The notes beneath the pieces are model-generated. The model was not told the DNA's origin. It searched no databases and worked only from the letters and a program-made list of their open reading frames with translations. 64,000 nt of DNA from Rhodothermales bacterium (lineage in GTDB: Bacteria; Bacteroidota; Rhodothermia; Rhodothermales; VXPQ01). A program made the position numbers and the translations under genes. Location: assembly GCA_951812345.1 (NCBI GenBank), contig OX638295.1, positions 1,770,965-1,834,964 on the forward strand, read 5' to 3'. Below, piece by piece: positions 26,337 through 43,995 of this stretch (position 1 is its first letter; every line of letters begins with the position of its first letter).

Positions 26337-26343
26337 GAACTCG

Positions 26344-27315: not shown

Positions 27316-27378
27316 GTAAATTTTTACCTTATACTAAAAGGCTTAATTCCTTGTTGCAGAAGGCATTAACGCAATAGA

Positions 27379-28848
27379 TCATCGTATCCTTGGGAGGTCG
27401 CCTGCCCCCTTTGCGGGTAGCTCTGTCGCTTCCTCGCGCAAGAAAACATCCACACCGCGAGCCGCCTCCCGTCCCTCGGCAATAGCCCATACCACAAGCG
27501 ACTGCCCCCGGCGCATATCTCCCGCCGCAAACACGCCAGGGCGCGACGACATGTAGTTTTCGTCCGTCCGGACATTGCCCCGTTCGTCCAACTCGATGCC
27601 AAGCTGGGCAATCACACCATCCGGCTCCGGCCCGACATAACCCACCGCAAGAAGCACCAGATCGGCCGGCCACAGGTGTTCGGAATTCGGCTGCTCCACA
27701 AAGCGCATGCGCCCGGAGGCGTCCTTTTTAGGCAGCACGTTCACCGTGCGCAGTTCCTGCACGCGCCCGTCGTCGCCGCTGAATTCCTTTGTCAGTACAC
27801 TCCAGTGACGATCCACCCCCTCTTCGTGAGATGTACTCGTCTGGAAAACCATGGGCATGAAAGGCCAGGGTTGATGGGGCGGCCGATCCTCAGGCGGCGT
27901 CGGAAGCAATTCGAACTGTGTGATGGATTTTGCTCCCTGCCTGTTGGCGGTACCCACACAATCGCTTCCCGTATCGCCACCGCCTATCACAATAATATCC
28001 TTGCCGGCAGCAGTGATCGGCTCAACATGATCCATGACGTCGCCCGCATTGATCTTGTTCTGCCTCCAGAGATAATCCCATGCGAAATGGATACCGGCCA
28101 ACTCCCGGCCCGGAACCGGCATGTCGCGCGGCTTCGTAGCTCCTCCGGTAAGTACCACGGCGCAAAAGTCGTCGAGAGCCGTCACAGGATAATTTTTGCC
28201 CACTTCGGCACTCGTTACGAACTCGACCCCTTCCTCGCACATCACATCGATCCGGCGATCCACAATCCATTTCTCGAGCTTGAAATCCGGGATACCGTAG
28301 CGAAGCAGCCCGCCGATGCGGTCATCCCTTTCAAATACGGTAACCGAATGACCCGCCTTGTTGAGCTGGTCCGCGGCGGCAAGCCCGGCGGGACCCGATC
28401 CTACCACAGCCACTTTCCTCCCCGTTCTTACTACTGGTGGATGCGGTGCATACCAGTTCTCTTTCCAGGCCCTGTCGGAGATGCTTTTTTCGATCTGCTC
28501 GATCGTGACCGGTGGCTCGTTGATGCCAAGCACACAGGCTGATTCGCACGGAGCGGGGCATATTCTGCCCGTGAACTCCGGAAAATTGTTCGTCGCGCGC
28601 AACCGCCCGAACGCCTCTTCCCATTCGCCCTGGTACACAAGGTCGTTCCAGTCCGGGATGATGTTGCCGAGCGGACATCCGGCCTGACAGAAAGGCACCC
28701 CGCAATCCATGCAACGGGCAGCCTGCTGTTTCACCTTCCGGACAGGAAGCTCCAGATACACATCGCGGTAGTCACGCTTGCGTTCCTCCACCGGACGCCG
28801 AGGGGCCAACTCCCGGCTGTATTCCATAAATCCCGTTATTTTACCCAT
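27379..28848 (-). CDS. gltD: Glutamate synthase small (beta) subunit
   Basis: A 489-residue protein, the normal size. I start at the ATG at 28846-28848 (MGKITGFMEYSREL), which matches GltD N-termini; the frame continues upstream for 47 codons only because the inserted repeat happens to be open. Motifs: Cys-rich CMDCGVPFC...CPLGN near residues 40-55 and CPAPCESAC near 90 for the two 4Fe-4S clusters, FAD site VVGSGPAGLAAA near 147, and NADPH site VIGGGDTGSD near 285, ending with the GVFAAGDMRRGQSLVVWAI flavin segment. It passes electrons from NADPH to GltB. The 5' side is directly abutted by a 255-bp element that separates it from gltB, so expression signals may now come from the element. Confidence 0.95.
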   Translation of the reverse strand: MGKITGFMEYSRELAPRRPVEERKRDYRDVYLELPVRKVKQQAARCMDCGVPFCQAGCPLGNIIPDWNDLVYQGEWEEAFGRLRATNNFPEFTGRICPAPCESACVLGINEPPVTIEQIEKSISDRAWKENWYAPHPPVVRTGRKVAVVGSGPAGLAAADQLNKAGHSVTVFERDDRIGGLLRYGIPDFKLEKWIVDRRIDVMCEEGVEFVTSAEVGKNYPVTALDDFCAVVLTGGATKPRDMPVPGRELAGIHFAWDYLWRQNKINAGDVMDHVEPITAAGKDIIVIGGGDTGSDCVGTANRQGAKSITQFELLPTPPEDRPPHQPWPFMPMVFQTSTSHEEGVDRHWSVLTKEFSGDDGRVQELRTVNVLPKKDASGRMRFVEQPNSEHLWPADLVLLAVGYVGPEPDGVIAQLGIELDERGNVRTDENYMSSRPGVFAAGDMRRGQSLVVWAIAEGREAARGVDVFLREEATELPAKGAGDLPRIR

Positions 28849-29103
28849 GGATGCTCTGATTAAATCCGCAAAGCTCAGAGGCTGAGAGGGGTGCGCTGGC
28901 AAGGAATGACGAAGCAATGTGGCAGGCCCCACATAATGAGGAATGACACGGCCAGCGTGCCCCTCTCTGCCTCCCGAAGGGCGCTTCACGTCCGCGACGC
29001 CCCGAATTCGCAGTGTTTCCCGCTGATTTCAACGATGGAATCATGATGTCCTGTACACGCGAAAGTGAAAGTGCTGAGCAAAGTGGTTTTGATCAGAGTA
29101 TCC
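28849..29103. mobile_element. 255-bp MITE-like element, full copy 2
   Basis: The same 255-bp sequence as at 8736-8990, starting GGATGCTCTGATTAAATCC and ending TTGATCAGAGTATCC. The left end touches the gltD start codon (28846-28848), so the entire immediate 5' leader of gltD is element sequence (…AGCATCC then ATG). The right end lies 32 bp past the gltB stop (29136 being the last base of gltB on the plus scale). No clear target-site duplication is seen at either side. It interrupts what would otherwise be a compact gltB-gltD junction. Confidence 0.8.
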
Positions 29104-29135
29104 ACCTATACTTCTGATCCCTTGAAAACGCCCGT

Positions 29136-32100
29136 CTATACGACGGCATGTTCCGGCATAATCGCCTGCCCCGCTTCTTCCTCCAGCCGGAGAAGGGCAT
29201 TCCGATATTCGACCGGCATGATCTTGATGAATTCCTCCAGCGAGGCTTCCCAGTTTTCAAGAACCCATTCCGCCACGGAGCTGCCCGTAAGGCGATAGTG
29301 TTTCTCCACCATCGCATGTAGTTCCTCCATATCGGCAGGGTCTTCCACCCTTTCTATATCCACCATCTTACCATTACAACGCAATGTCCTGAACTCCAGG
29401 GTGCCGTCGAGCACGTACGCCACGCCCCCGCTCATGCCCGCTGCAAAGTTGCGCCCGGTGGGACCAAGCACCACCACACGCCCGCCGGTCATATACTCGC
29501 ACCCATGATCGCCGAGGCCTTCGACCACAGCATGCACGCCGCTGTTGCGCACGCCAAAACGTTCGCCGGCGCGTCCGCGCACGAACACCTCCCCGCTCGT
29601 TGCGCCGTACAGCGCCACATTGCCGATAATGATGTTGCTATGCGCGTCGTACCCGGCATTTTCCGGCGGCTGTACGATCAGGCGGGAACCGGAAAGCCCC
29701 TTGCCGAAATAATCGTTTGCATCGCCCCTCAGGTGGACAGTGATGCCTGGGGCCCCAAAGGCGAAGAAACTCTGCCCACCAGAGCCTGCCATATTGATCC
29801 GGATCGTATCGTCAGGAAGGCGCCCGCCCGGATACCGCTTGCTCACTTCGGCGGAGAGTAGCGTTCCGACCGTCCGGTTGATATTCCGGATAGCGATGTC
29901 GAATTCAACCGGGGTCTTCATTTCAAGCGCCGTTCGAGCCATTTCGATCAGGCGATGATCCAGCGCCTCGTCGATGCCGTGATCCTGCTCCGTTGCATGG
30001 AATTTGCGCAGCGCTTCGGGAACCTCCGGTTTCACGAGAACCGGGGAAAGGTCCAGATGCCTGGCCTTCCAATGATCGACGTCCGGGCGGACTTTCAGCC
30101 GCTGAACCTGTCCGGTCATTTCCTTCACCGTGCGAAAACCAAGACGGGCCATGATCTGGCGCAACTCTTCCGCGACGAAGTGGAAATAATTGATCACATC
30201 TTCCGGTTGCCCCTCGAATTTCTTCCGAAGTTCCGGGTCCTGTGTGGCAATACCGACGGGACACGTATTCAGATGGCATTTGCGCATCATAATGCAGCCT
30301 ATCGCCACCAGGGGCGCCGTCGAGAAGCCGAATTCGTCCGCACCCAGCAGACAAGCGACCGCCACGTCGAGCCCGGTCTTGAGTTGTCCGTCGCATTCCA
30401 CCCGAATGCGGCTCCGGAGCCCGTTCCGGACCAGCACCTGATGCGTTTCGGACAGGCCCAACTCCCAGGGTAGCCCTGCGTGCATGATGGAGGTTTGCGG
30501 GGAAGCGCCGGTCCCCCCGTCGTGGCCGGAAATCAGCACGACATCGGCCTTGCCTTTCGCCACGCCGGCAGCGACCGTACCCACGCCCACCTCGGAGACG
30601 AGCTTGACCGTAACCCGCGCGTCCGGATTCGAATTTTTGAGATCGTGGATCAACTGCGCCAGATCCTCGATCGAATAAATGTCGTGATGCGGAGGCGGGG
30701 AAATAAGGCCTACGTAGGGGGTCGAATGGCGCGTCTTCGCAATCCACGGATACACCTTTTCGCCCGGCAATTGTCCGCCTTCCCCCGGCTTGGCCCCCTG
30801 GGCCATTTTAATCTGAATCTCGTCGGCGCTCGTCAGATAGTCGATGGTCACGCCAAAACGCCCCGACGCTACCTGCTTGATTGCGCTCCGCTTTTCGCTG
30901 CGGCGATCGTACCGTTCCGGGTCCTCGCCGCCTTCGCCCGTGTTGCTCTTGCCCCCGATACGATTCATGGCAATGGCAAGCGTCTCATGGGTTTCCTTCG
31001 AAATGGACCCGTACGACATGGCGCCTGTCTTGAACCGCTTGACGATCTCCGTCCACGGTTCCACTTCATCGAGCGGAACAGGCTTTGTCCCCGCTTCGTC
31101 GAGCACAAGCAACCCGCGCAACGTGCCGAGCTGCCGGGTCTGATCGTTGACCTGCCTGGAATACTCCTCGTAGGTAGAAGTCTCTCCGGAGCGCACCGCT
31201 TGCTGCAAGCGCGCGATCGTCATAGGGTTGAACAGATGGTGTTCCCCGTTGCGCCGCCAGAGGTAACGCCCGCCCGGGTCCAGACCCTTCGAAAAAACAA
31301 GGGAGACATCCGGCCAGGCCTGACGATGACGCATCATCGTCTCCTCGGCGATCGTATCGAGATCGATGCCGCCTATACGACTTGCCGTACCTGTGAAGTA
31401 CCGGTCGACGAGATCCTGGGCCAAGCCGACTGCCTCAAAAATTTGGGCGCCCCGGTAACTCTGCACCGTGGAAATGCCCATCTTCGACATCACCTTCAGA
31501 ATCCCCTTCCCGACCGATTCCATGTAACCGACCCTTGCCTCTGTGTTGGAAATTTCTTCTCCTTCCAGCAAGCGTTCGATCACCTGCAAGGCCAACCAGG
31601 GATTCACCGCATCGGCGCCGTACCCGATAAGCGTGCAGAAATGATGTACCTCCCGGGGTTCCCCGCTTTCAATCACGATGGAGGCGCGGGTGCGAAGGCC
31701 TTCGCGAATCAGACGATGATGTACGGCAGCGGTAGCGAGTAGCGCCGGAATGGGCGCCAGATCCGGGCCGGCCGCCCGATCCGACAATACCAGCACGGAC
31801 CGGCCTTCGCGCACCAGCCGCTCCGCCTCTTCGCACAGATGGGCGAGCGCCTTGCGAAGCCCCTCTCCCCCGCTGTCTCCATCGAATACGATGTCGATCT
31901 TCTGCGTCTTCAATTCCTCGATTCCCGAATTCGGGATGCGCGCAAGGTCCCTGTCCGAAAGAATGGGCTGCTTCAGAATCAGTTTGCGGCAATGCTGCGG
32001 CGTTTCCTTGAAAAGGTCCCGCTCGGCTCCCAGTTGCGTAAAGAGGGAGGTCACCATCTCTTCGCGGATAGCGTCGAGCGGAGGGTTCGTCACCTGGGCA

Positions 32101-33668
32101 AAAAGCTGGCGGAAATAGTCGTACAGTAGACGCGGCTTATCCGACAACACGGCTAGGGGCGTATCGTCTCCCATCGAACCGAGGGCTTCCTTGCCATGCA
32201 GCCCCATAGGCTTCATAAGGAGACGCTCGTCTTCGAGCGTGTAGCCGAACATTTTCTCCCGGGCATGGAGTTCTTCGGGGGCATACCGTGCCGGTCTGCC
32301 GTAATCCGGCAAATCCTGCAGGCGCACAGCGTGATCCCGGAGCCACTCGATATAGGGACGGCGGGTGGCCAGCGTTTGCTTGATTTCCTCGTCTTCAATA
32401 ACCCGGTGCTCTTCCAGATCGACCAGGAACATCTTGCCGGGCTGCAGGCGCCCCTTCGACACCACATCGGCCGGATCCGTATTGAGGACGCCCGTCTCGG
32501 AGGCCAGAATGACCAGACCGTCTTTCGTGACCGTATACCGGGAGGGGCGCAACCCATTCCGATCGAGAATAGCGCCGATGTACCGGCCGTCCGTAAAGGG
32601 CAGCACGGCGGGGCCGTCCCACGGCTCCATCAAACAGGAATGGTACTCGTAAAAGGCGCGCTTCTCCTCGCTCATCTCCCGGGTGTACTCCCAGGCTTCC
32701 GGCACCAGCATCATCATAGCGTGCGGAAGCGAACGGCCCGTAAAGTAGAGCAACTCGAGAGCATTGTCCAGAATGGCCGAGTCGCTGGCGCCCTCGGTCA
32801 GTATGGGCAAAAGCTTCTGCATATCGTTGCCGAAGAGTTCCGACTCGAATAGCGACTGCCGGGCATTCATCCAGTTGAAATTGCCCCGGAGCGTATTGAT
32901 CTCACCGTTGTGACACAAAAAGCGGAATGGCTGCGCCAACATCCACTGCGGTAGTGTATTCGTCGAAAATCGCGCATGCACCATCGCAAGCGCGCTCTTC
33001 ATGCGAGGATCGACCAGATCGGTGTAAAATCGGGGCAAGTCCTCAGCCAATAACATCCCCTTATACACGATCGTGCGCGAGGACAGCGAGGGGATATAAA
33101 ACTCGTCCATCCCCGGCATATCCGCCCCTGCTATGGTATGTTCTACCACCTTGCGGATAACATACAGTTTGCGTTCAAACGCATCCTGATCCGCGGTTTG
33201 CTTCCCGCGCCCTGCAAGCACCTGCCAGAGTTCGGGCTGCATTGCTGCAGCGGCTTCCCCCACAGCATCCGGAGAAACCGGTACGCGGCGCCACCCGATA
33301 AATTCCTGCCCTTCCGCCCGAATCGTTTCCTCGAAGGTATTCCTGCAAAATGTCTGCGCGCGGGCGTCCCGGGGCAGAAAAACCATGCCGGCCGCATATT
33401 CCCCCGGGGCGCGTACGCCGGCGCCGAGTTCTTTCAGCACCGGCGCCAGAAATTCATGCGGCGCCTGAAGAAGAATACCCGTTCCGTCGCTTGTCCGGTC
33501 ATCGCATCCGCATGCCGAGCGATGTCCCAGGTTGTTCAGCATTTCGAGCCCCTTCTGCACAATATCGTGGACGGGTTCGTTCTGCACATTGCAAACGAAA
33601 CCGACGCCGCACGCGTCGTGCTCGTAAAACGAGTCGTAAAGACCTTCTCGGATACGTGGTAACTGCAT
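29136..33668 (-). CDS. gltB: Glutamate synthase large (alpha) subunit
   Basis: A 1510-residue protein, full length for GltB. The class II glutaminase domain opens with ACGVGF, where Cys20 becomes the N-terminal nucleophile after removal of a 19-residue propeptide. A central domain follows, then the FMN-binding synthase domain (GGKSNTGEGGEDPERY near residue 900, GAKPGEGGQLPG near 960, ISGHDGGTGASP near 1055), the 3Fe-4S cysteines in CIMMRKCHLNTCPVG near 1130, and the C-terminal GXGXG beta-helix domain (GATSGEVFVRGRAGERFGVRN-type repeats near 1370). It makes two glutamates from glutamine and 2-oxoglutarate with GltD. It begins 24 bp after cimA, within the branched-chain cluster. Confidence 0.96.
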   Translation of the reverse strand: MQLPRIREGLYDSFYEHDACGVGFVCNVQNEPVHDIVQKGLEMLNNLGHRSACGCDDRTSDGTGILLQAPHEFLAPVLKELGAGVRAPGEYAAGMVFLPRDARAQTFCRNTFEETIRAEGQEFIGWRRVPVSPDAVGEAAAAMQPELWQVLAGRGKQTADQDAFERKLYVIRKVVEHTIAGADMPGMDEFYIPSLSSRTIVYKGMLLAEDLPRFYTDLVDPRMKSALAMVHARFSTNTLPQWMLAQPFRFLCHNGEINTLRGNFNWMNARQSLFESELFGNDMQKLLPILTEGASDSAILDNALELLYFTGRSLPHAMMMLVPEAWEYTREMSEEKRAFYEYHSCLMEPWDGPAVLPFTDGRYIGAILDRNGLRPSRYTVTKDGLVILASETGVLNTDPADVVSKGRLQPGKMFLVDLEEHRVIEDEEIKQTLATRRPYIEWLRDHAVRLQDLPDYGRPARYAPEELHAREKMFGYTLEDERLLMKPMGLHGKEALGSMGDDTPLAVLSDKPRLLYDYFRQLFAQVTNPPLDAIREEMVTSLFTQLGAERDLFKETPQHCRKLILKQPILSDRDLARIPNSGIEELKTQKIDIVFDGDSGGEGLRKALAHLCEEAERLVREGRSVLVLSDRAAGPDLAPIPALLATAAVHHRLIREGLRTRASIVIESGEPREVHHFCTLIGYGADAVNPWLALQVIERLLEGEEISNTEARVGYMESVGKGILKVMSKMGISTVQSYRGAQIFEAVGLAQDLVDRYFTGTASRIGGIDLDTIAEETMMRHRQAWPDVSLVFSKGLDPGGRYLWRRNGEHHLFNPMTIARLQQAVRSGETSTYEEYSRQVNDQTRQLGTLRGLLVLDEAGTKPVPLDEVEPWTEIVKRFKTGAMSYGSISKETHETLAIAMNRIGGKSNTGEGGEDPERYDRRSEKRSAIKQVASGRFGVTIDYLTSADEIQIKMAQGAKPGEGGQLPGEKVYPWIAKTRHSTPYVGLISPPPHHDIYSIEDLAQLIHDLKNSNPDARVTVKLVSEVGVGTVAAGVAKGKADVVLISGHDGGTGASPQTSIMHAGLPWELGLSETHQVLVRNGLRSRIRVECDGQLKTGLDVAVACLLGADEFGFSTAPLVAIGCIMMRKCHLNTCPVGIATQDPELRKKFEGQPEDVINYFHFVAEELRQIMARLGFRTVKEMTGQVQRLKVRPDVDHWKARHLDLSPVLVKPEVPEALRKFHATEQDHGIDEALDHRLIEMARTALEMKTPVEFDIAIRNINRTVGTLLSAEVSKRYPGGRLPDDTIRINMAGSGGQSFFAFGAPGITVHLRGDANDYFGKGLSGSRLIVQPPENAGYDAHSNIIIGNVALYGATSGEVFVRGRAGERFGVRNSGVHAVVEGLGDHGCEYMTGGRVVVLGPTGRNFAAGMSGGVAYVLDGTLEFRTLRCNGKMVDIERVEDPADMEELHAMVEKHYRLTGSSVAEWVLENWEASLEEFIKIMPVEYRNALLRLEEEAGQAIMPEHAVV

Positions 33669-33692
33669 AATGCCTGGAGACTGCCTCTTTCT

Positions 33693-35318
33693 TCAATCCT
33701 GCTGAACGAGGGCTTCCTTCATGGAGTTGGCCGGCTTGGCGCCTTCTCGCATCAATGCATACCGGATGCCGTCTGCGATAGCCTGCCAGCTTGCTTCCAG
33801 AATGTTGGTGGAGACGCCCACCGTATTCCATGTCTCATTCCTGTTCTTATGTTCAACGAGCACGCGGACATACGCCGCCGTGCCGTCCTCGGGGCTTACC
33901 ACGCGCACCTTGTAATCGGCGAGATGCACCTGTTCGAGACCCGGATAAAAGGCGATCAACACACCGCGCAACGCATTCGACAGAGCATCTACCGGCCCCA
34001 CGCCTTCGGCCACAAGCAATTCCCTGCGGCCATCAACGCGAAGCGCTACCGTCGCCTGGGTGGCATCTGCGCTCTCGTCGCTAAGCTCACTCTGAACCCG
34101 GAGTCGCTCCAGGGAAAAGAACTCTGTTTCCTCACCCTGAATCTGCCGCAGAAGCAATTCGAAGGAAGCTTCTGCCCCCTCGAATTCATAACCGAGATGC
34201 TCAAGGTCCTTGATGCGCTTTACAGCACGCACCGCCTCGTCTGCTTCGCCCAGGTCAAGGCCCAGTTCCTGCGCCTTGTAGCGTACGTTGCTGCGGCCGG
34301 ATAAATCAGACACGAGCACCCGGCGCTTGTTACCGACCTGTTCGGGCATGAGATGCTCGTACGCCGCCGGTTCCTTCATCACCGCCGATACATGGATGCC
34401 GCCTTTGTGAGCGAATGCACTCCGGCCCACATACGCCGACCGCCCCACCGGATCGAGGTTCGCCACCTCGTATACAAAATGTGAGATATCCGTGAGTTCA
34501 CGCATTCTATCCGGCGAAACGCACGCGTATCCGAGCTTGAGTTGGAGTCCCGGGACAATCGCAGTCAGATCCGCGTTGCCGCAGCGTTCTCCGATACCAT
34601 TGATCGTCCCTTGCACATGCCGGGCGCCAGCCTGCACCGCTATAATCGAATTGGCCGCAGCACATCCGGAGTCGTTGTGCGCATGAATACCAAGCCCCAC
34701 TTCGAACCGACCCGCTACATCGCCAACGATCCGACCCAGCGTGCCGGGCAGCGTGCCTCCATTCGTATCGCACAGGGCCAACACATCCGCGCCCGCCGAA
34801 GCAGCAGCCTCCAGGGTTTCCAGCGCATAAACGCGGTCGTTCATATACCCGTCGAAAAAATGCTCTGCATCGTACACCACATGCTTTCCGTGCGCCTTCA
34901 GGTACGCTACGGATGAGCGGATCAGATCAAGGTTTTCCTCCCTGGTTACGCCCAGGGCCACTTCCACGTGGAGCGTCCAGCTTTTGCCGAAGAGGGAAAC
35001 CACCGGGGTATCCGCTTCCAGTATGGCCCGCAGATTGGGATCGTCCTCCGGAGCGTACTGTACGCGGCGCGTGGAGCCAAAAGCACAGATGCGCGCCTGC
35101 TCCCATTCCACATCCCGCGCCAATTCGAAAAATTCCTGGTCTTTGGGATTTGAACCAGGCCATCCCCCCTCGATAATGCCAATGCCAAAGTGGTCAAGAC
35201 GTTTTGCGATCCGCAACTTGTCGCGAGCCGTCAGCGAAACGTGCTCGCCTTGCGTACCGTCGCGGAGCGTCGTATCGAAAAGCTCCACAAAGACCGGTTC
35301 GTCGGCTTGTTCTGACAT
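33693..35318 (-). CDS. cimA: (R)-citramalate synthase
   Basis: A 541-residue member of the alpha-isopropylmalate synthase family. The HMGL-like TIM barrel opens with ELFDTTLRDGTQGEHVSLT and has GWPGSNPKDQEFF near residue 52, LGIHAHNDSGCAAANS near 210 and NGIGERCGNADL near 238; the C-terminal half carries the regulatory LeuA-dimer domain. The GWPGSNPKD and LFGKSW segments distinguish citramalate synthase from LeuA, and a separate LeuA is present at 37253. It condenses pyruvate with acetyl-CoA, giving a threonine-independent path to isoleucine, processed by LeuCD and LeuB from the same cluster. I use the ATG at 35316-35318; one four codons upstream is also possible. 85 bp separate it from leuD. 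Confidence 0.92.
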   Translation of the reverse strand: MSEQADEPVFVELFDTTLRDGTQGEHVSLTARDKLRIAKRLDHFGIGIIEGGWPGSNPKDQEFFELARDVEWEQARICAFGSTRRVQYAPEDDPNLRAILEADTPVVSLFGKSWTLHVEVALGVTREENLDLIRSSVAYLKAHGKHVVYDAEHFFDGYMNDRVYALETLEAAASAGADVLALCDTNGGTLPGTLGRIVGDVAGRFEVGLGIHAHNDSGCAAANSIIAVQAGARHVQGTINGIGERCGNADLTAIVPGLQLKLGYACVSPDRMRELTDISHFVYEVANLDPVGRSAYVGRSAFAHKGGIHVSAVMKEPAAYEHLMPEQVGNKRRVLVSDLSGRSNVRYKAQELGLDLGEADEAVRAVKRIKDLEHLGYEFEGAEASFELLLRQIQGEETEFFSLERLRVQSELSDESADATQATVALRVDGRRELLVAEGVGPVDALSNALRGVLIAFYPGLEQVHLADYKVRVVSPEDGTAAYVRVLVEHKNRNETWNTVGVSTNILEASWQAIADGIRYALMREGAKPANSMKEALVQQD

Positions 35319-35403
35319 GAAGGTGTCCATTTTGTCTTCCGATTGCCCGTTGTGGCGTCACCCATGGCAACAGCTTATAGCGGGCCACGCGCTATTCAGT
35401 ACA

Positions 35404-35967
35404 TCAGGTTGGCATAAATCCGGCTTGTCTTGCGAATTCGAAAACATTGCCTGCTTTCAGTATCTCGGCCACGTCCCCAAGCGGTTTGAGCAAAAATTCC
35501 TCTCCTGTCGTGTGGTTTGCAAGTTTACCCAACGTCGTATCGATTTCGAGGAGATCGCCCGTACGCACGCGCTCGACCAACCGCTCGATCGATTCGAACG
35601 GAACGATAAACCCTCCGTCCACCGCGTTGCGATAGAAGATGCGGGCGTAACTCTCAGCCACGACGGCAGTGCATCCGGCTTCCTGCAACGCAAACGGGGC
35701 ATGCTCCCGCGAAGACCCGCACCCGAAATTCGAACCGCCCACCACGATCGTGTAGGCGCTTTCGAACGCATCCTCCTCTGTAAACAGGCGGTTGCCGTAC
35801 GGAAGTCCTTGCTGATCTTTCGGCACGCCGCTAAGCGCATAACGCCCGTAATACTTGCGCTCTTCCGGATCGGACAGGCTGTATACCAGGTGCTCGGCCG
35901 GGATAATCTGGTCCGTATCGATGGCGTCGCCCACAACGTAGGCCGCCCCTGTGATCGTCTTTTTCAT
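35404..35967 (-). CDS. leuD: 3-isopropylmalate dehydratase small subunit
   Basis: A 187-residue aconitase swivel domain. The ATG at 35965-35967 overlaps the leuC stop by 4 bp and gives MKKTITGAAYVVGDAIDTDQIIP, the canonical LeuD start with the DTDQI motif. Later segments: VVGGSNFGCGSSREHAPFAL near residue 75 and AESYARIFYRNAVDGG near 105. It forms the heterodimeric isomerase with LeuC, acting on 2-isopropylmalate and, given cimA next door, probably citramalate. Length is slightly longer than archaeal-type LeuD and similar to plant small subunits. Confidence 0.95.
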   Translation of the reverse strand: MKKTITGAAYVVGDAIDTDQIIPAEHLVYSLSDPEERKYYGRYALSGVPKDQQGLPYGNRLFTEEDAFESAYTIVVGGSNFGCGSSREHAPFALQEAGCTAVVAESYARIFYRNAVDGGFIVPFESIERLVERVRTGDLLEIDTTLGKLANHTTGEEFLLKPLGDVAEILKAGNVFEFARQAGFMPT

Positions 35968-37256
35968 ACCAGTACCTCGCGAGGATCCGTAATGACTCCG
36001 GAAAGCGCCGAGGCCGCCACCGTGTAGGGAGACGCCAGATACACGGAAGCTTCCTTGCTGCCCATGCGTCCGGGGAAATTCCGGTTCGTGGTGGAGATCA
36101 CGATTTCCGTGCCGTGTGTCCTGCCAAACGTATCCGACGGTCCGCCAAGGCACGCTGCGCAGGAAGCCTGGCCCAGTTTGCAACCGGATCGTTCGAATAT
36201 ATCGTACAACGTGTCCCCTTCGATGTACGTCGTGTGTAACTGTTTGCCGATCCAGGTCGTCGCCGGCACGATGTAGGTATCGATGACCACCTCTTGACCC
36301 CGCAGGATAGTCGCCGCCGCCACAAAATCCTCCAGCTTGCCGCCGGTGCAGCTGCCGACGTACGCGCGATCCAGTCTCGTCCCGGCCACTTCAGACACCG
36401 TCGCCCGGTTGTCCGGGCTGTGCGGCTTCGCCACAAGCGGTTCGATGTCCTCGACCCGGTACGTCTTGAGCGTATGATACCGGGCGTCGAGATCGCCGTA
36501 GACAGGCTCGAACTCCGTATCGGTGCGCGCCCGCACATACTCGAAGGTTTTTTCGTCGGGGGGAATGATCCCGTTCTTTCCTCCCGCCTCGATCGCCATG
36601 TTCGTCAACGTCATGCGCTCGTGGACCGGCAGGTCGTAGACCGCTTCGCCGTCGAATTCGAGCGCGCGGTAGGTACCCCCATCCGTCCCGATGTCGCCGA
36701 TGACCTGCAGGATAAGATCCTTCGCCATCAGATAAGGCGGAAGAGACCCCTCGAACACAAATCGCATCGTTTCGGGGACCTTGAGCCAGAGCTTGCCGGT
36801 GCCCATGATCAGCGCAGCGTCCGTGTTGCCCACTCCGGTCGAAAACATGCCGAATGCACCGGAGGTACACGTGTGGCTGTCCGTACCGATCAGCAGCGAA
36901 CCCGGCACGTTGAACCCTTCTTCGGCAAGCGCCATGTGGCATACGCCCTTGTAGCTCGGCGTACCCGGATCGTAGTAATACGGAAGATCGTGCTCGGCGG
37001 CAAAGGCCCGAAGCAAATCCACATTCCGGTTCGCATGGTGGTTCTTCGTGAAGATGTAGTGATCGGGAATGATCACCAGTTTCTCCTTGTCCCACGGTAC
37101 CGCATCGGCGCCGAATTCGCGACGGAAAATATCGATGGTCGGGGGACCGCACACATCGTGCGTCATGAGGATGTCCACGTCCACCCAGATGTTATCCCCG
37201 GGCGCCACCCGATCCCGACCTGCGTGCCGCGCCAGTATTTTCTCCGTAATCGTCAT
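35964..37256 (-). CDS. leuC: 3-isopropylmalate dehydratase large subunit
   Basis: A 430-residue aconitase-family protein with GTDSHTCTSGAFGMFSTGVG near residue 122 and cluster-binding cysteines at about 303 (GSCTGG), 366 and 369 (SCAACLGG). The 420-430 residue size and segments such as KVPETMRF and LPPYLMAKDLILQVIGDIG are closer to the plant/homoaconitase-like type than to the longer E. coli LeuC. It overlaps leuA upstream and leuD downstream by 4 bp each, so leuACD are translationally coupled. The C-terminal part GRTHGTEIVISTTNRNFPGRMGS holds the conserved Arg residues for substrate binding. Confidence 0.95.
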   Translation of the reverse strand: MTITEKILARHAGRDRVAPGDNIWVDVDILMTHDVCGPPTIDIFRREFGADAVPWDKEKLVIIPDHYIFTKNHHANRNVDLLRAFAAEHDLPYYYDPGTPSYKGVCHMALAEEGFNVPGSLLIGTDSHTCTSGAFGMFSTGVGNTDAALIMGTGKLWLKVPETMRFVFEGSLPPYLMAKDLILQVIGDIGTDGGTYRALEFDGEAVYDLPVHERMTLTNMAIEAGGKNGIIPPDEKTFEYVRARTDTEFEPVYGDLDARYHTLKTYRVEDIEPLVAKPHSPDNRATVSEVAGTRLDRAYVGSCTGGKLEDFVAAATILRGQEVVIDTYIVPATTWIGKQLHTTYIEGDTLYDIFERSGCKLGQASCAACLGGPSDTFGRTHGTEIVISTTNRNFPGRMGSKEASVYLASPYTVAASALSGVITDPREVLV

Positions 37257-38863
37257 GTTGGGCCTCCCTCGAACGAACTCATAATGCCATTACCCACAAA
37301 GGTCATGTTCTCCTCTTCGGATCGCCAGGTTTCCAGATTATTGAGCGCATCGATATAGGCGTCCGCAGATGCGCGGATCACATCCGTGTTTTGCGCCTGT
37401 CCTCTGAAAAAGGCTCCGCTTTCCCGGATGAGCACCGTCACTTCGCCAATGGCGCCAGCCCCCTCGGAAACGGATCGAATAGAGTAGCTTTCCAGCTTGT
37501 GCGAACTGCCGAGCGCATGATTGATGGCGCGATACACGGCGTCCACAGGGCCATCGCCTGTCCCCTCCGCGGCCAACCGCTCCTCAGCAGTAACATTGAA
37601 CACCTCCACCTCTGCCTTCGGATGCTTTCCGGTAGCAACCGTAACGGACAGATTGTCGAGCCGGTAGTGCTGCAAAACCGCGTGCTCCGCAGTCCCCTGA
37701 ACAAGGTGAATCAGATCCGCATCGTGGATTTCTTTCTTGCGATCCGCAAGGCGAACGAATAACTGGTAGAGCGCGTCCTTGCGGGAATCCTCGACATGCA
37801 TACCCATCCGCTTCAGACGGCTGAAAAAGCCGTGGCGTCCGGAGTGCCGGCCCAAACGTATTTGTTCGCTCGTCTGGCCCACATCCTCCGCCTGCATGAT
37901 TTCGTAGGTATCCCGGCGCTTCAGCACGCCATGCTGGTGAATACCAGCCTCGTGGCTAAAGGCGTTACGCCCCACAATAGCCTTGTTCGGCGGCACCGGA
38001 AATCCCGTCGCCACCGACACCATGCGGCTTGTTTCCGCAAGGTGCGTGGCCTCTATGTCCGTGTCGACGCCGAATTGCTCGTGCCGGACACGCAGCGCCA
38101 TCACCACTTCTTCCAGCGAGGCATTACCGGCCCGCTCGCCAATGCCGTTGATCGTACATTCGATCTGGCGGGCGCCCGCACACACGGCGGCAATGGAATT
38201 GGCCACGGCCAAGCCGAGATCGTCGTGACAGTGCGTCGAGAGCACCACATTCTTCGTCGATCGCACACCCTGGCGAACCGCCTCGAACATGCGTGCATAT
38301 TCGGTGGGCGTGCAATAGCCGGTCGTATCCGGAATGTTGATGGTCGTGGCTCCCTCCTCGATCGCTGCAGCAATCACCTCGCACAAAAAATTGTGCTCCG
38401 TGCGGCCCGCATCCTCTGTGCTGAACTCTATATCATCGGTATACGTCCGCGCCAGTTGTACGGCTTCGCGAGCCATCCGCACGACGTTCCGGCGCTTCTC
38501 CGGAAGCGTTTTGCCGTACTTGTCGCTGCCGAACTTGGCGTCTATGTGAATGTCGCTGGTGGCGATAAACGTATGAATCCGCGTCCGTTGGCCCCCGGAC
38601 AGTGACTTTCCGGCGGCATGTACATCGTCTTCGAGTGCGCGGGCAAGCGCGCAGATCACAGGACCCTGTACGTCGCGCACGATGCTCGCCACAGCCTCGA
38701 ACTGGGCCGGGGACGAAATTGGAAAGCCGGCCTCGATCACATCCACGTTCAGCTTCACGAGTTGCCGGGCGATGCGGAGCTTCTCATTGATCGTCATGGA
38801 TGCGCCCGGCGCCTGCTCGCCGTCGCGCAACGTCGTATCGAATATGGTTACTTTGTCTTTCAT
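37253..38863 (-). CDS. leuA: 2-isopropylmalate synthase
   Basis: A 536-residue protein with the HMGL-like TIM barrel: FDTTLRDGEQAPGASM near residue 8, EAGFPISSPAQFEAV near 44, LSTHCHDDLGLAVANS near 208 and NGIGERAGNASLEEV near 238, followed by the LeuA-dimer regulatory domain that normally binds leucine. It condenses 2-ketoisovalerate with acetyl-CoA. Upstream, a palindrome GAGGAATTCCTC lies just before the ATG and includes a GAGGAA word that may be the ribosome-binding site. The gap to leuB is 149 bp, much longer than the other junctions in this cluster, and contains a possible small ORF and a hairpin (GACGAC/GTCGTC, 38934-38950). Confidence 0.95.
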   Translation of the reverse strand: MKDKVTIFDTTLRDGEQAPGASMTINEKLRIARQLVKLNVDVIEAGFPISSPAQFEAVASIVRDVQGPVICALARALEDDVHAAGKSLSGGQRTRIHTFIATSDIHIDAKFGSDKYGKTLPEKRRNVVRMAREAVQLARTYTDDIEFSTEDAGRTEHNFLCEVIAAAIEEGATTINIPDTTGYCTPTEYARMFEAVRQGVRSTKNVVLSTHCHDDLGLAVANSIAAVCAGARQIECTINGIGERAGNASLEEVVMALRVRHEQFGVDTDIEATHLAETSRMVSVATGFPVPPNKAIVGRNAFSHEAGIHQHGVLKRRDTYEIMQAEDVGQTSEQIRLGRHSGRHGFFSRLKRMGMHVEDSRKDALYQLFVRLADRKKEIHDADLIHLVQGTAEHAVLQHYRLDNLSVTVATGKHPKAEVEVFNVTAEERLAAEGTGDGPVDAVYRAINHALGSSHKLESYSIRSVSEGAGAIGEVTVLIRESGAFFRGQAQNTDVIRASADAYIDALNNLETWRSEEENMTFVGNGIMSSFEGGPT

Positions 38864-38887
38864 TGGAGGAATTCCTCGACGGTTTCT

Positions 38888-39016
38888 TTACAAGTAGTAG
38901 TGCGTAGGGGCTATCGCACGCGCCCGATGCGTCGACGACAGAAAGTCGTCCCGCCCATGCTGCGCCGGGCGCCTTGTAAGTCGAAGAAAATCAATATGTA
39001 CAATATAACGTGTCAT
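38888..39016 (-). CDS. Possible 42-residue small ORF between leuB and leuA
   Basis: An ATG at 39014-39016 overlaps the leuB stop as ATGA and opens a 42-codon frame ending at TAA 38888-38890, 24 bp before leuA. The peptide begins MTRYIVHIDFLRL, is Arg/His-rich and has no run of leucine or other control codons, so it is not a typical attenuation leader. It includes the sequence of a perfect 6-bp hairpin. It may simply be open by chance; the case for it is the start-stop overlap and placement. Confidence 0.25.
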   Translation of the reverse strand: MTRYIVHIDFLRLTRRPAQHGRDDFLSSTHRARAIAPTHYYL

Positions 39017-40134
39017 GCGGCCGCCCCCACCTTATGCTCCTTGCTCGCCGCCTGCCGCACATGGTCGGCAATACACGCACCCATCTCCTCGGTGGATACG
39101 AGCCTGCAACCCTCTTCCCGCATATCCGCCGTGCGCACGCCCCCCGAGAGCGTCTCGCTCACGGCCTCGCGAATTGCCGCCGCCGCGTCTGTCTCGCCCA
39201 GTTCCTCAAGCATCATGGCGGCACTGAGCACAGCAGCGACGGGATTAGCCTTCCCTTCGCCCGCAATGTCGGGAGCGCTCCCGTGCACCGGCTCGAACAA
39301 TCCTGTGGAGCCGCCTACCGAAGCCGACGGCAGTACGCCGAGCGAGCCCGGCAACGTCGCTGCCAGATCGGAAAGGATATCGCCGAACAGATTCGCTGTA
39401 ACCACCACATCGAAGTCCGATGGACGCCGCACGATCTGCATGGCGGCGTTGTCGATATACAAATGCTCCAGTTCTACGTCAGAATAGCCGGCGCTATGCA
39501 CCTGTGTCACGACATCGTTCCACAGTTGCGATACTTCCAGCACGTTGGCTTTATCCACGGACGTAACCCGGCAGCGACGACGACGCGCCCAGGTAAACGC
39601 CACATGCGCGATACGCTCTATTTCCGCTTCCGAGTAACGCATCGTGTTGAGCGCTTCCGCGCCCTGCGTGCCCTCGACAGGCCCCTTCGGCTCTGCGAAA
39701 TAAATTCCGCCGGTCAATTCGCGCACGATCATCATATCCGTGCCTGCGACAACCTCCCGCCTGAGCGGCGACGCACCCGCCAGAAAATCCGGCACGGTCA
39801 CCGGACGCAGATTCGCATACACGCCGAGCGTCCTGCGCAGGCCCAGCAGACCGGCTTCCGGACGCAAATCCCCATGAAGATCGTCCCAGGCAGGTCCTCC
39901 AACGGCCCCAAGCAACACGGCGTCGGATTCGAGGCAGGCTATTGCCGTAGCTTCCGGCAAGGGCGTGCCGAACGCATCGATGGCGCTCCCCCCTATGAGA
40001 AACTCTTCGGACGCCACAGCAAAACCAAACCGCTGCCCCGCTTCCGCAAGGATGCGGAGCGCTTCACGGGTAACTTCCGGCCCGACGCCGTCGCCCGGCA
40101 AACAGGCAATGCGGTATGTTTTCCGATCAGGCAA
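39013..40134 (-). CDS. leuB: 3-isopropylmalate dehydrogenase
   Basis: About 373 residues. Family motifs: ACLPGDGVGPEV at the N-terminus, the LRRTLGVYANLRPV segment near 100, VRELTGGIYFAEPKG near 130, the SVDKANVLEVSQLW segment near 190, the metal-site VTANLFGDILSDLAA near 240 and LFEPVHGSAPDIAG near 290. There is no ATG between the ilvC stop and the first motif; I propose a TTG at 40132-40134 (giving MPDRKTYRIACLPGDG), 2 bp past the ilvC stop. The alternative is an ATG at 40177-40179 that would overlap ilvC by 43 bp. It oxidises and decarboxylates 3-isopropylmalate, and probably the methylmalate-type analogue of the citramalate route. Confidence 0.92.
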   Translation of the reverse strand: MPDRKTYRIACLPGDGVGPEVTREALRILAEAGQRFGFAVASEEFLIGGSAIDAFGTPLPEATAIACLESDAVLLGAVGGPAWDDLHGDLRPEAGLLGLRRTLGVYANLRPVTVPDFLAGASPLRREVVAGTDMMIVRELTGGIYFAEPKGPVEGTQGAEALNTMRYSEAEIERIAHVAFTWARRRRCRVTSVDKANVLEVSQLWNDVVTQVHSAGYSDVELEHLYIDNAAMQIVRRPSDFDVVVTANLFGDILSDLAATLPGSLGVLPSASVGGSTGLFEPVHGSAPDIAGEGKANPVAAVLSAAMMLEELGETDAAAAIREAVSETLSGGVRTADMREEGCRLVSTEEMGACIADHVRQAASKEHKVGAAA

Positions 40135-40136
40135 AT

Positions 40137-41153
40137 CTATACAGCTTGCGCTTCTTCTTTTTGTTCGCCGCGCAGCCAACTCATCATGCCGCGCAGGCGC
40201 TTGCCGATCTTTTCGATCGGATGCTCTCTGGACCTGCCGCGTAAGGCGAGCAGTTGCTTGCCCCCGGCTTCATTCTCCGCAATCCATTCTTCGGCAAACG
40301 TTCCGTCCTGTATTTCGGCGAGAATCCGCCGCATACGCTCGCGAGCCGAGGCGTCGATGACCCGCGGGCCGCGCGTGTAATTCCCGTACTCGGCCGTATC
40401 GCTGATCGAATAGTTCATGTATTCCAGCCCGCCGTCGTAAATCAGATCGACAATGAGCTTGAGTTCGTGCAGACACTCGAAATACGCCAGCTCGGGAGGA
40501 TACCCGGCTTCGGTCAGCGTCTCGAATCCGGCCTTGATGAGCTCTTCGGCGCCGCCGCAGAGCACGGCCTGTTCCCCGAAGAGGTCGGTTTCCGTTTCAT
40601 CCTTGAAGGTGGTTTCGATAACCCCTGCCCGGATGCCGCCTATGCCTTCCGCATAACTCAGCGCCATATCCAGTGCAGCGCCCGATGCGTCCTGTGCGAC
40701 AGCCACCAGACAAGGCACTCCTTTCCCCTCCTCGAATACGCGGCGCGCCAGGTGGCCCGGCGATTTGGGAGCCACCATGAACACATCGACCCCTTCCGGC
40801 GGCGTGATCTGACCATAGTGAATGTTGAAACCGTGGCCGAAAACCAGGGACTTGCCCGGCGTCATATACTCGGCCATGTGGGCCTCGTACACCTGCTTCT
40901 GATGCTGGTCCGGCACCAGCATCACAACAAGATCGCCCCACGCGGTCGCGTCGGAAATACTCATGACGCGCAGGCCCCTGGCGGCGGCTTCCGCGCGCGA
41001 CGAGGAACCCTCGCGCAGCCCGACCGCCACGTCGACGCCGCTGTCATGCAGGTTCAGGGCATGAGCATGCCCCTGGCTTCCGTATCCTATGACGGCTACG
41101 CGCCGCGACCGGACGAGATCGGGATTGGCCCGATAGTGAACGTTAACTCCCAT
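40137..41153 (-). CDS. ilvC: Ketol-acid reductoisomerase (class I)
   Basis: A 338-residue class I KARI. The Rossmann motif [19 protein letters not shown] lies at about residues 21-39, with a Leu-Arg-Glu-Gly-Ser-Ser stretch after strand 2 of the type seen in NADPH-using enzymes. [10 protein letters not shown] near 105, [21 protein letters not shown] near 126, and the knotted metal-binding region with [22 protein letters not shown] near 185 are intact. It converts acetolactate or acetohydroxybutyrate to dihydroxy acids with NADPH and Mg. The 64-bp gap after ilvN shows no hairpin that stands out. An acidic/Gln-rich C-terminal tail is slightly unusual. Confidence 0.96.
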
Positions 41154-41217
41154 CTGTGTGATATTCTCGTTTGCAGGTGTATGTGCGGGCCGTTTGCGGC
41201 CCGTGCGAAAAACCGGT

Positions 41218-41796
41218 TCAATCGCCGAAAAGCAGCGCTCGTTTCATGGCCACGCGGCCACTCCGCGCAATTTCCTCAATCCCGTAACGGTTCATCATCC
41301 CGATGAAGGCATTGATCTTCTTGGTGGGACCGGCAAGTTCGAAGGTCATCGTATCTGTCGTGATATCCACGACCTTGCCATTGAAAATCTTGAGCGTATC
41401 AAGCAATTCGACACGGTTGTCGGAGGTATACGAAACCTTCAGCAGGCACAACTCGCGCTCGACGTACTCCTCTGACGTCAGGTCCTCTACTTCCAGGACA
41501 TCGACCAACCGGTTCAGTTGACGACTCACCTGGGCAATGATGCGGTCTTCGCCCGTCGTGACAATGGTCATCCGGGAAACCGAGGTTTCGTCCGTTTCCC
41601 CGACCGTCACGCTTTCGAGATTGAAGCCGCGGGCAGAGAACAAATTGATAACGCGGTTCAGCGCCCCGATCGAATTCTCGAGCAAAACGGCAATGATATG
41701 CCGGTGGCTGTGCGCTTTCTCGCCCGGCCCTATGGGTTCTCCCTGGGCCTTCTTCCGCAGAATCTGTTGCGGGGTTAGTGTATCGTGCTCACTCAT
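41218..41796 (-). CDS. ilvN: Acetolactate synthase small (regulatory) subunit
   Basis: A 192-residue protein with an N-terminal ACT domain ([27 protein letters not shown] from about residue 26, then [13 protein letters not shown]) that binds valine in homologues, followed by the ALS_ss C-terminal domain ([24 protein letters not shown]). The first 25 residues are a hydrophilic extension not needed for the fold. Start ATG at 41794-41796 lies 24 bp after ilvB. It regulates and activates IlvB. Annotation is straightforward; symbol ilvN (also called ilvH) is used for adjacency to an ilvB-type large subunit. Confidence 0.94.
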
Positions 41797-41820: not shown

Positions 41821-43581
41821 TCATACGAAGGCGTCGGGCGTCAGACGCTTCGTGATCATTTCGTTGGTGGAGGCGCCCGCAGGCACCATCGGAAATACCA
41901 TTTCCTCCTTGATGACACGAAATTCCATCACGGCGGGGCGATCGGTGACGGCCCATGCCTTCCGGATAACCTCGTCGACCTGGTCCGGAGTCTCCGCTCG
42001 CAGACCTACGCAGTGATGCGCCTCGGCAAGCTTGACGAAATCCGGGTTGGTATCGGACAGATCGGTATGGCTGAAACGCTCTTCGTGGAACAATTCCTGC
42101 CATTGCCGCACCATGCCCAGAAAATTATTGTTTATGATGACCACCTTGATCGGCAGCCCGTGCGCGGCGGCGACGCATAGTTCCTGTGCATTCATAATGA
42201 AGCCCCCGTCGCCGCTCACCGAAACAACCGTCTTGTCCGGCATGCCGAACGCGGCGCCCATTGCCGCGGGAAAGCAAAAACCCATCGTGCCGAGACCGCC
42301 CGACGTAATGTGCGTGCGCGCATGCAAAAACTGAAAATACTGGGCCGCCCACATCTGGTGCTGGCCCACATCCGTCACCACGATCGCTTCTCCCTTCGTA
42401 TGGCGTCGAAGGCGCTCGAGTACATACTGCGCGCGGAGGCGCCCGTCCTCATGATCGTACATAAGCGGGCATTCCTCTTTCCATGCTTGCACCTGTTCAA
42501 GCCATTCCCCGGTATTACACGGCTCCACGAGAGGTTCAAGGCGCGTGAGCGCATCGAGTACATCCCCCACAATGGCGCAATCCACGTAGACATTCTTGGA
42601 GATCGAGGACGGATCGATGTCGATATGTATGATCTTCGCATGCGGCGCCCAGGATTCGAGCTTACCCGTCACCCGGTCGTCAAACCGCGCTCCGACAGCA
42701 ATCAACAGATCGGCGTTCTGCACCGCCATGTTGGCGTACCATGTGCCATGCATACCAAGCATGCCCACCGAAAGCTCGTCGTTCTCGGGAAACGCTCCGA
42801 GTCCGTGCAGGGTGGTTGTGACCGGAATGCGCGCCTTCCGGGCAATCCGGGTCAACACGTCCGCTCCATTCGAATTCACGGCCCCGCCCCCCACATAAAA
42901 CAGGGGCTTCTCCGCCTCGGCAATCATGGCTGCGGCGCGCTGGATCTTGGCTTCATCGCCCTTGTCTTTGAAGCGATAACCACGCAGATTGACCTCCTTC
43001 GGGTATTCGAATTCGGTTTCGGCCAGAAGCACGTCCTTGGGCAAATCCACGACAACGGGGCCGGGCCGCCCCGTCCGGGCAATGTGATACGCCTTTTTCA
43101 CAGCCGAGGCCAGATCCCGCACATCGCGCACCAGGTAGCTATGCTTCGTGATACTGCGGGTGATGCCTATCGTATCGCATTCCTGGAAAGCGTCGTTCCC
43201 GATGAGCTGGGTCGGTACTTGCCCGGTGAAAACGACAATAGGCACGGAATCCATATACGCATCCGCAATACCCGTAACCGTGTTGGTAGCGCCGGGTCCG
43301 CTGGTCACAAGCACCGTACCCACCTTGCCTGTCGCCTTGGCGTATCCTTCGGCAGCGTGAGCGCCGCCCTGCTCATGCCGCACCAGGACATGCTTGAAGT
43401 TCGGCTTGATGCGAGCCATTTCATCATAGATTTTGATGACGGCCCCTCCAGGGTGACCGAACACCACTTCCACGCCCTCTGCATCCAGCGAACGCAGAAA
43501 AATCTCCGCGCCGCTCATACGTTGCGCACCGTTAACCGATGGCGCATGTTTCGGTATGCTGCTTCCTTCCATATCAGGCAT
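41821..43581 (-). CDS. ilvB: Acetolactate synthase large (catalytic) subunit
   Basis: About 586 residues. The thiamine-diphosphate enzyme architecture is complete: N-terminal PYR domain with VFGHPGGAVIKIYD and the catalytic Glu in VRHEQGGAHAAEGYA (near residue 65), FAD/central domain with VGARFDDRVTGK near 280, and the C-terminal PP domain with GDGGFIMNAQELCVAAAHGLP near 430. Start options are ATG 43579-43581 (used) or 43570-43572; a longer frame to 43623 adds nothing conserved. It makes acetolactate (valine, leucine) and acetohydroxybutyrate (isoleucine). It is the first structural gene after the leader peptide and attenuator-like hairpin described upstream. Confidence 0.95.
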   Translation of the reverse strand: MPDMEGSSIPKHAPSVNGAQRMSGAEIFLRSLDAEGVEVVFGHPGGAVIKIYDEMARIKPNFKHVLVRHEQGGAHAAEGYAKATGKVGTVLVTSGPGATNTVTGIADAYMDSVPIVVFTGQVPTQLIGNDAFQECDTIGITRSITKHSYLVRDVRDLASAVKKAYHIARTGRPGPVVVDLPKDVLLAETEFEYPKEVNLRGYRFKDKGDEAKIQRAAAMIAEAEKPLFYVGGGAVNSNGADVLTRIARKARIPVTTTLHGLGAFPENDELSVGMLGMHGTWYANMAVQNADLLIAVGARFDDRVTGKLESWAPHAKIIHIDIDPSSISKNVYVDCAIVGDVLDALTRLEPLVEPCNTGEWLEQVQAWKEECPLMYDHEDGRLRAQYVLERLRRHTKGEAIVVTDVGQHQMWAAQYFQFLHARTHITSGGLGTMGFCFPAAMGAAFGMPDKTVVSVSGDGGFIMNAQELCVAAAHGLPIKVVIINNNFLGMVRQWQELFHEERFSHTDLSDTNPDFVKLAEAHHCVGLRAETPDQVDEVIRKAWAVTDRPAVMEFRVIKEEMVFPMVPAGASTNEMITKRLTPDAFV

Positions 43582-43683
43582 TGATCCCGACCGGTTGTTT
43601 CCCTTCGTTATTTGGTGACCCAACGAGTGGTTCGCATACTGTGCAAGTCAAACACACGCAACGAACCATCCGGGTAGACTTGT

Positions 43684-43712
43684 TAAAATACGAACCGCTG
43701 GCTTCAGCGTTC
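43684..43712 (-). terminator. Attenuator-like intrinsic terminator upstream of ilvB
   Basis: On the minus strand GAACGCTG-AAGC-CAGCGGTTC forms an eight-pair stem with one bulged G and a 4-nt loop, followed immediately by GTATTTT. It lies about 100 bp before the ilvB start and about 125 bp after the leader-peptide stop codon, where an attenuator terminator is expected. A second hairpin, GTGAAGG/CCTTCAC at 43761-43779, lies between it and the leader. No energy was computed. Confidence 0.6.
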
Positions 43713-43836
43713 AGATACGTTTCTTCGAGAGCGTGCATGGGCATCTTGTTATCGTGCGGCGTGAAGGCCAATCCTTCACTGTCCGATTGATGCCATCATG
43801 CATACTGGAGAGGTGCGAAGGATCGGCCGGTCCCGG

Positions 43837-43995
43837 CTAAACCGTAATAATAATGAGACCGGGAAGGAGAAGAACAACCGACGCCAGTCGCCCGTCGGCA
43901 ACGCATACCGCTCGCAGCAAGACACGAGAAATGTCCTTGCCTGCGCGCCGAAGCGCTATCCGTTTGCGGGAGTATTGCGTCATGGTCCGAGCCAT
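43837..43995 (-). CDS. Branched-chain amino-acid leader peptide (ilv attenuation leader)
   Basis: A 52-codon ORF on the minus strand, ATG at 43993-43995 (a second in-frame ATG is at 43981-43983), TAG at 43837-43839. The peptide is basic at its start (MARTMTQYSRKR) and ends SVVLLLPGLIIITV, where ten of the last fourteen residues are Val, Leu or Ile, including runs of VV, LLL and III. This is the design of ilv leader peptides such as E. coli IlvL, where ribosome stalling at uncharged Val/Leu/Ile codons decides between antitermination and termination. The last codons lie in the loop of a possible CCGGTC/GACCGG stem (43827-43832 with 43857-43862). Downstream come two more hairpins, the second with a T-run, then ilvB. 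Sequence reading is direct; the mechanism is inferred by analogy. Confidence 0.7.
   Translation of the reverse strand: MARTMTQYSRKRIALRRAGKDISRVLLRAVCVADGRLASVVLLLPGLIIITV

Follow-up and report, generated by a model that had tools for sequence, protein, structure and literature searches.

Most descriptions of gene control by amino-acid leader peptides come from Proteobacteria, Actinobacteria and Firmicutes, and almost all of them concern transcription termination. Described arrangements that resemble the locus studied here include the actinobacterial LEU element ahead of leuA, in which a leader containing Leu codons is predicted to be linked to a structure in which the Shine-Dalgarno box takes part (PMC1262725), and leader peptides rich in branched-chain amino acids, followed by terminators, that precede ilvB in Actinobacteria (PMC1262725, PMC10272879) and other groups. 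A preliminary description of the window, the whole 64,000-nucleotide stretch of Rhodothermales DNA that we analysed, had proposed an attenuator of the E. coli ilv type ahead of ilvB and knew of no account of ilv attenuation in Rhodothermota. The literature that we searched, which included few subscription papers, agrees with this statement and yielded no description of the element in Rhodothermota or neighbouring groups. No family in Rfam, which may lack models for some of the LEU element, ilvB-II and ilvB-OMG, matched it. Here, we present evidence, entirely computational, that the locus carries a leader-peptide attenuator. Membership of this class is well supported, a response to tRNA charging is predicted, and we consider it likely that the leader peptide controls translation of the genes that follow. 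The features discussed below are collected in Table 1.

Table 1 Features of the putative ilv leader, the operon downstream and a stretch found in relatives.
Feature	Position	Strand	Remarks
Leader ORF	43837-43983, extendable to 43995	-	ATG 43983; 52 codons from 43995
Leader control codons			GTT GTT CTT CTC CTT .. CTC ATT ATT ATT .. GTT; stop TAG 43839-43837
Candidate 1:2-like hairpin	43827-43862	-	CCGGTC 43862-43857 and GACCGG 43832-43827; spans Ile codons and stop
Segment 2, GGCCGATCCTTC	43817-43828	-	begins 8 nt past leader stop
Anti-start segment, GCATGATGGCATC	43789-43801	-	in 2:3 loop; complement of 43745-43735 (GATGCCCATGC, ORF2 start)
Segment 3, GAAGGATTGGCC	43766-43777	-	partner is segment 2 or, in part, segment 4
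3:4 hairpin, GTGAAGG-attgg-CCTTCAC	43761-43779	-	7 bp; followed by GCCGCACG, without U-tract
ORF2	43574-43744	-	ATG 43744 or 43738; stop overlaps ilvB ATG; holds GTATTTT hairpin
ilvB (acetolactate synthase large subunit)	41821-43581	-	first enzyme gene of operon
ilvH, ilvC, leuB, leuA, leuC, leuD, cimA, gltB, gltD, GHMP kinase (thrB-like), threonine synthase	25026-41796	-	
GTATATC(TG)-like stretch	L269 (1205-1300), L272, L273, L115 (1653-1800), L116 (1674-1800), L209-L220		

The 52-codon ORF that had been noticed upstream of ilvB was found at 43837-43995 on the minus strand. Its tail reads SVVLLLPGLIIITV before TAG and, as claimed, 10 of the last 14 residues are Val, Leu or Ile. Such tails are rare: among 4,100 ORFs of 15-90 aa on both strands of 364 kb of the same genome, two had at least 10 of 14 Val/Leu/Ile residues, the leader ORF being one of them. 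The second ATG, at 43983, is kept as the start in the genus (MTQ[YH]S, 6/6 genomes). Across families, substitutions in the tail fell mostly within I, L, V and F, and the alignment of related genomes that the preliminary description had suggested as a check showed that its Val/Leu/Ile richness is retained. Val/Leu/Ile codons of the tail end in A or T in 58% of cases compared to 22% in ilvB of the same genomes, an enrichment expected for slow control codons; the AT-ending codons of the leader are probably slow. The CCGGTC/GACCGG stem reported over the last codons is present in the sequence and confined to the genus. In five other families (f2, f3, f6, f8 and f12), the final control codons and the stop lie within hairpins such as TTAGCC-ttatt-GGCTAA. 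These are possibly pause or 1:2-like hairpins, which would account for the recurrent S and G residues at the leader ends.

All six genomes of the genus, which belongs to the Rhodothermales, and most Rhodothermales families examined have a leader rich in Val, Leu and Ile upstream of their first ilv gene. It precedes ilvB in f1 (6/6), f3, which is Rhodothermus (7/7), f9 (3/3), f14 (4/4) and f8 (1/1), and ilvD in the families whose operons begin with that gene (f2, f5, f6 and f12). In f13 it stands upstream of a leuB-like gene (L111, 1175), the copy in one f15 genome (L103) is degenerate, and no leader was found in the upstream regions examined from f4 or from genus g15 of f15. The placement in f13 and the degenerate copy in f15 indicate that the element moved or decayed with changes in the operon. 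A covariance model, R1, matched 44 of 114 Rhodothermales genomes, with a single match in almost every case, and the matches that were checked lay at the ilv locus. Extra matches in f14 (G055:C24 and G084:C91) and f13 (G070), which lie in coding-like sequence and have no leader, were disregarded. Within 1.5 kb upstream of hisG and trpE in the window's own genome, a search that was not exhaustive revealed no leader. Leaders of like build were present in Balneolaceae, and before ilvD or ilvB in Ignavibacteria-like and Chlorobium-like genomes, placed as outgroups by ilvB similarity and kinship labels only, and in one Caldithrix MAG.

On balance, we lean towards a single old ilv attenuator, acting on translation, that is shared by Rhodothermota, Balneolota, Ignavibacteria, Chlorobia and Calditrichota. 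In this ancestral arrangement the initiation region of the first ilv gene would be masked by segment 3 or the 2:3 loop and relieved by segment 2, and the element would have been kept with the operon through exchanges of ilvB and ilvD at its head. Two further observations concern the same relatives. A GTATATC(TG)-like stretch occurs downstream of segment 3 and ahead of the start codon in the Ignavibacteria-like, Caldithrix and Balneolaceae leaders; the hairpins do not account for its role. One outgroup genome (L270, 1250-1366, plus strand) has a SAM riboswitch (RF00162, 82 bits) on the other strand from the ilv leader.

Past the leader stop, two helices share one segment. In the 10-bp 2:3 helix, 94.6% of cells were paired in an alignment of 30 sequences, and six pairs were doubly changed. 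None of 500 shuffles reached its covariation score, and sliding the partner by 1-3 columns abolished the signal. Segment 2 begins 3-13 nt after the stop across sequences, and segment 3 follows a further 18-47 nt on. The GTGAAGG/CCTTCAC hairpin described earlier is present at 43779-43761. Segment 4 pairs as GTGAAGG/CCTTCAC in the window, CCGGGG/CCCCGG in Rhodothermus and GAGGGG/CCCCTC in f14. Compared to shuffled downstream sequence, 3:4 was stronger (p = 7e-4, combined over families); taken alone, the 3:4 hairpins of f2, f8 and f12 were not above chance. In L053 and L054 the 3:4 hairpin was set by hand before alignment. The mutually exclusive structures for which the preliminary description had recommended a search were thus recovered: 2:3 covaries, 3:4 uses the same segment 3, and segment 2 lies close enough to the leader stop for a ribosome there to decide between the two. 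Comparison among relatives supports the leader and helix 2:3, the competition of this helix with 3:4, the lack of a U-tract and the geometry of the element. A separate observation concerns the arms themselves: the primary sequence of GGTCAATCCC and GGGATTGACC (window 43817-43828 and 43766-43777; alignment A1) is conserved between distant families beyond the need for pairing, and the model leaves this unexplained.

A segment of the 2:3 loop has its complement in the start region of the ORF that follows. These matches were first spotted by eye and tested afterwards, with the test restricted to the start region; unrestricted duplex energies over whole leaders were noisy. Over 11 families, the complementarity exceeded that of shuffled loops (p = 5e-5) and shuffled start regions (p = 1.5e-7), as well as that of two controls, downstream windows (p = 0.005) and loops of other families (p = 0.02). 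It was weaker per single sequence, with p = 0.045 (loop shuffle) and p = 0.010 (start-region shuffle) for the window, where the anti-start pairing is part of the minimum-energy fold. The case for predicted start sequestration is modest for the window sequence alone and strongest in Rhodothermus, with CACTTCACAGGC pairing with GCCTGTGAGGTAGCCATG, and in Balneolaceae. In Balneolaceae, segment 4 contains or adjoins the Shine-Dalgarno sequence, for example in CCTCtgGCGG..CCGCGAGG-caacATG, and other species retain the hairpin with altered pairs (CTGGTAG..CTACCAG). Collectively, the competing helices and the anti-start element indicate translation initiation as the output. This is probably correct, and is the best but as yet unproven reading.

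We propose that when branched-chain aminoacyl-tRNA is ample, the ribosome would reach the leader stop and its leading edge would cover the onset of segment 2. The 3:4 hairpin would then form, and the freed anti-start segment would pair around it with the start of the next ORF, blocking initiation (OFF). When Val, Leu or Ile is scarce, the ribosome would stall upstream, and 2:3, the first helix to form on the emerging RNA, would sequester segment 3 together with the anti-start segment, so that the start stays free (ON). In the genus, the gated start is apparently that of ORF2, which would hand ribosomes to ilvB by way of the overlap. Ribosome stalling, kinetic trapping of the ON state, the relay by way of ORF2 and the consequences for expression are inferred. 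Folding calculations bear on several of these steps. When the transcript stops after segment 3, 2:3 was fully formed in 27 of 28 sequences; in the truncated transcript of the window, a ribosome edge at +12 to +14 left 2:3 formation unprevented. At equilibrium, the OFF fold was dominant in most Rhodothermales at any ribosome position, with P(2:3) in the window of at most 0.36; the ON state could thus arise only by kinetic trapping, the situation in classic attenuators. At equilibrium, ribosome position had little or no effect on start access in most Rhodothermales sequences, whereas in most Balneolaceae sequences predicted start accessibility dropped as the ribosome edge moved from +8 to +16-20. 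Equilibrium folding as proof of switching holds for most Balneolaceae, fails for most Rhodothermales, and was abandoned as a general argument.

ORF2 is open in 6/6 genomes of the genus, with its stop within -8 to +3 nt of the ilvB ATG, and comparable bridging ORFs are found in f14 and f8. A conserved protein is not supported: dN/dS ranged from 0.36 to 1.4, giving no sign of selection at the amino-acid level, and any role of ORF2 would therefore be that of a translated relay. Downstream, the twelve genes that the attenuator had been said to control agree in number with our count, and ilvB through threonine synthase are co-directional. Among them, gltB, a 1,510-aa ORF, was assigned by position and size only.

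An E. coli ilv-type transcription attenuator, in which 2:3 would be the antiterminator and either 3:4 or the GAACGCTG hairpin would terminate when amino acids are ample, is in our view unlikely. Leader, stop codon and alternative helices follow one another as in such a system, and this part of the original proposal, a leader with mutually exclusive structures, stood. The terminal intrinsic terminator did not, since no U-tract follows 3:4: in 33/33 Rhodothermales sequences there are 0-2 T in the 8 nt after the hairpin, and in most of them the start codon lies 4-30 nt from its end, Rhodothermus being the exception with up to about 66 nt. T-runs do occur near 3:4 in one or two outgroup sequences (L276, L279). 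The second hairpin claimed before ilvB, GAACGCTG/CAGCGgTTC with a T-run, was upheld as a stem; its T-run amounts to GTATTTT and, although this follows the hairpin in 6/6 genomes of the genus, it is absent outside the genus and lies inside ORF2. The GAACGCTG/CAGCGGTTC hairpin was therefore rejected as a terminator. Termination by either hairpin would also leave the complementarity to the start region unexplained.

At 68 convergent 3' ends in 364 kb of the window's own genome (the window and L193-L207, with simple gene calls), hairpins with U-tracts were not enriched, which suggests that the usual intrinsic terminators are few in the genus. The absence of a U-tract after 3:4 is thereby weakened as decisive evidence: because convergent gene ends likewise do without U-tract hairpins, it speaks against a terminator of the E. 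coli kind and not against every mode of termination. The same finding favours a Rho-dependent or mixed mechanism, in which translation of the leader would gate Rho, or blocked ilv initiation would expose the RNA, and transcription would stop without a U-tract. An initiation block on a long operon would favour polarity. Rho alone would, however, leave both the covarying 2:3/3:4 switch and the anti-start complementarity unaccounted for, and we regard such a mechanism as improbable.

The inverted repeat GGTCAATCCC..GGGATTGACC could instead be a DNA operator or a protein-binding RNA site next to an incidental leader, as the conservation of its arms beyond the pairing requirement might suggest. We consider this very improbable: the distance between the arms ranges from 18 to 47 nt, the pairs covary, Balneolaceae retain the fold with unrelated arms, and the repeat always begins 3-13 nt past a leader stop. 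Chance, that is, a functionless hydrophobic tail followed by hairpins, can be dismissed almost entirely, for although single hairpins of this size are common at such GC and the fold z-score of the region is just -1.8, many families have the leader and helix in the same position despite sequence change and the Val/Leu/Ile tail is rare in the genome.

A translational attenuator at this locus would bring leader-peptide control to a large branch for which knowledge of attenuation is scant, with translation initiation as its probable output, and predicts that one leader gates a 12-gene ilv-leu-cimA-glt-thr operon. The covariance model can be used to annotate many genomes, and the choice between transcription and translation is directly testable in cultivable Rhodothermus. 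With the E. coli ilvGMEDA, ilvBN and trp-type attenuators, the element shares a leader with control codons, a segment 2 just past the stop and mutually exclusive 2:3 and 3:4 helices. It differs from them in that 3:4 has no U-tract and adjoins a start codon, the anti-start segment lies in the 2:3 loop, and the putative output is translational. The LEU element likewise joins a leader peptide to a Shine-Dalgarno-linked structure at a branched-chain amino-acid gene, but in that element the Shine-Dalgarno box forms a pseudoknot with the codon run itself (PMC1262725), whereas here a 2:3/3:4 switch past the stop would act as the gate. An upstream ORF rich in branched-chain residues before ilvB is also common to the Corynebacterium ilvB-II, ilvB-OMG and Leptospira ilvB motifs (PMC10272879). 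Unlike the present element, the ilvB-II motif has an intrinsic terminator (PMC10272879); the comparison with ilvB-OMG is by description and not by alignment. Finally, the translational attenuators of the erm type, which govern macrolide resistance, resemble the proposed mechanism in that stalling on a leader frees the next start through a hairpin switch. They sense an antibiotic and control resistance genes, whereas the signal proposed here is aminoacyl-tRNA.
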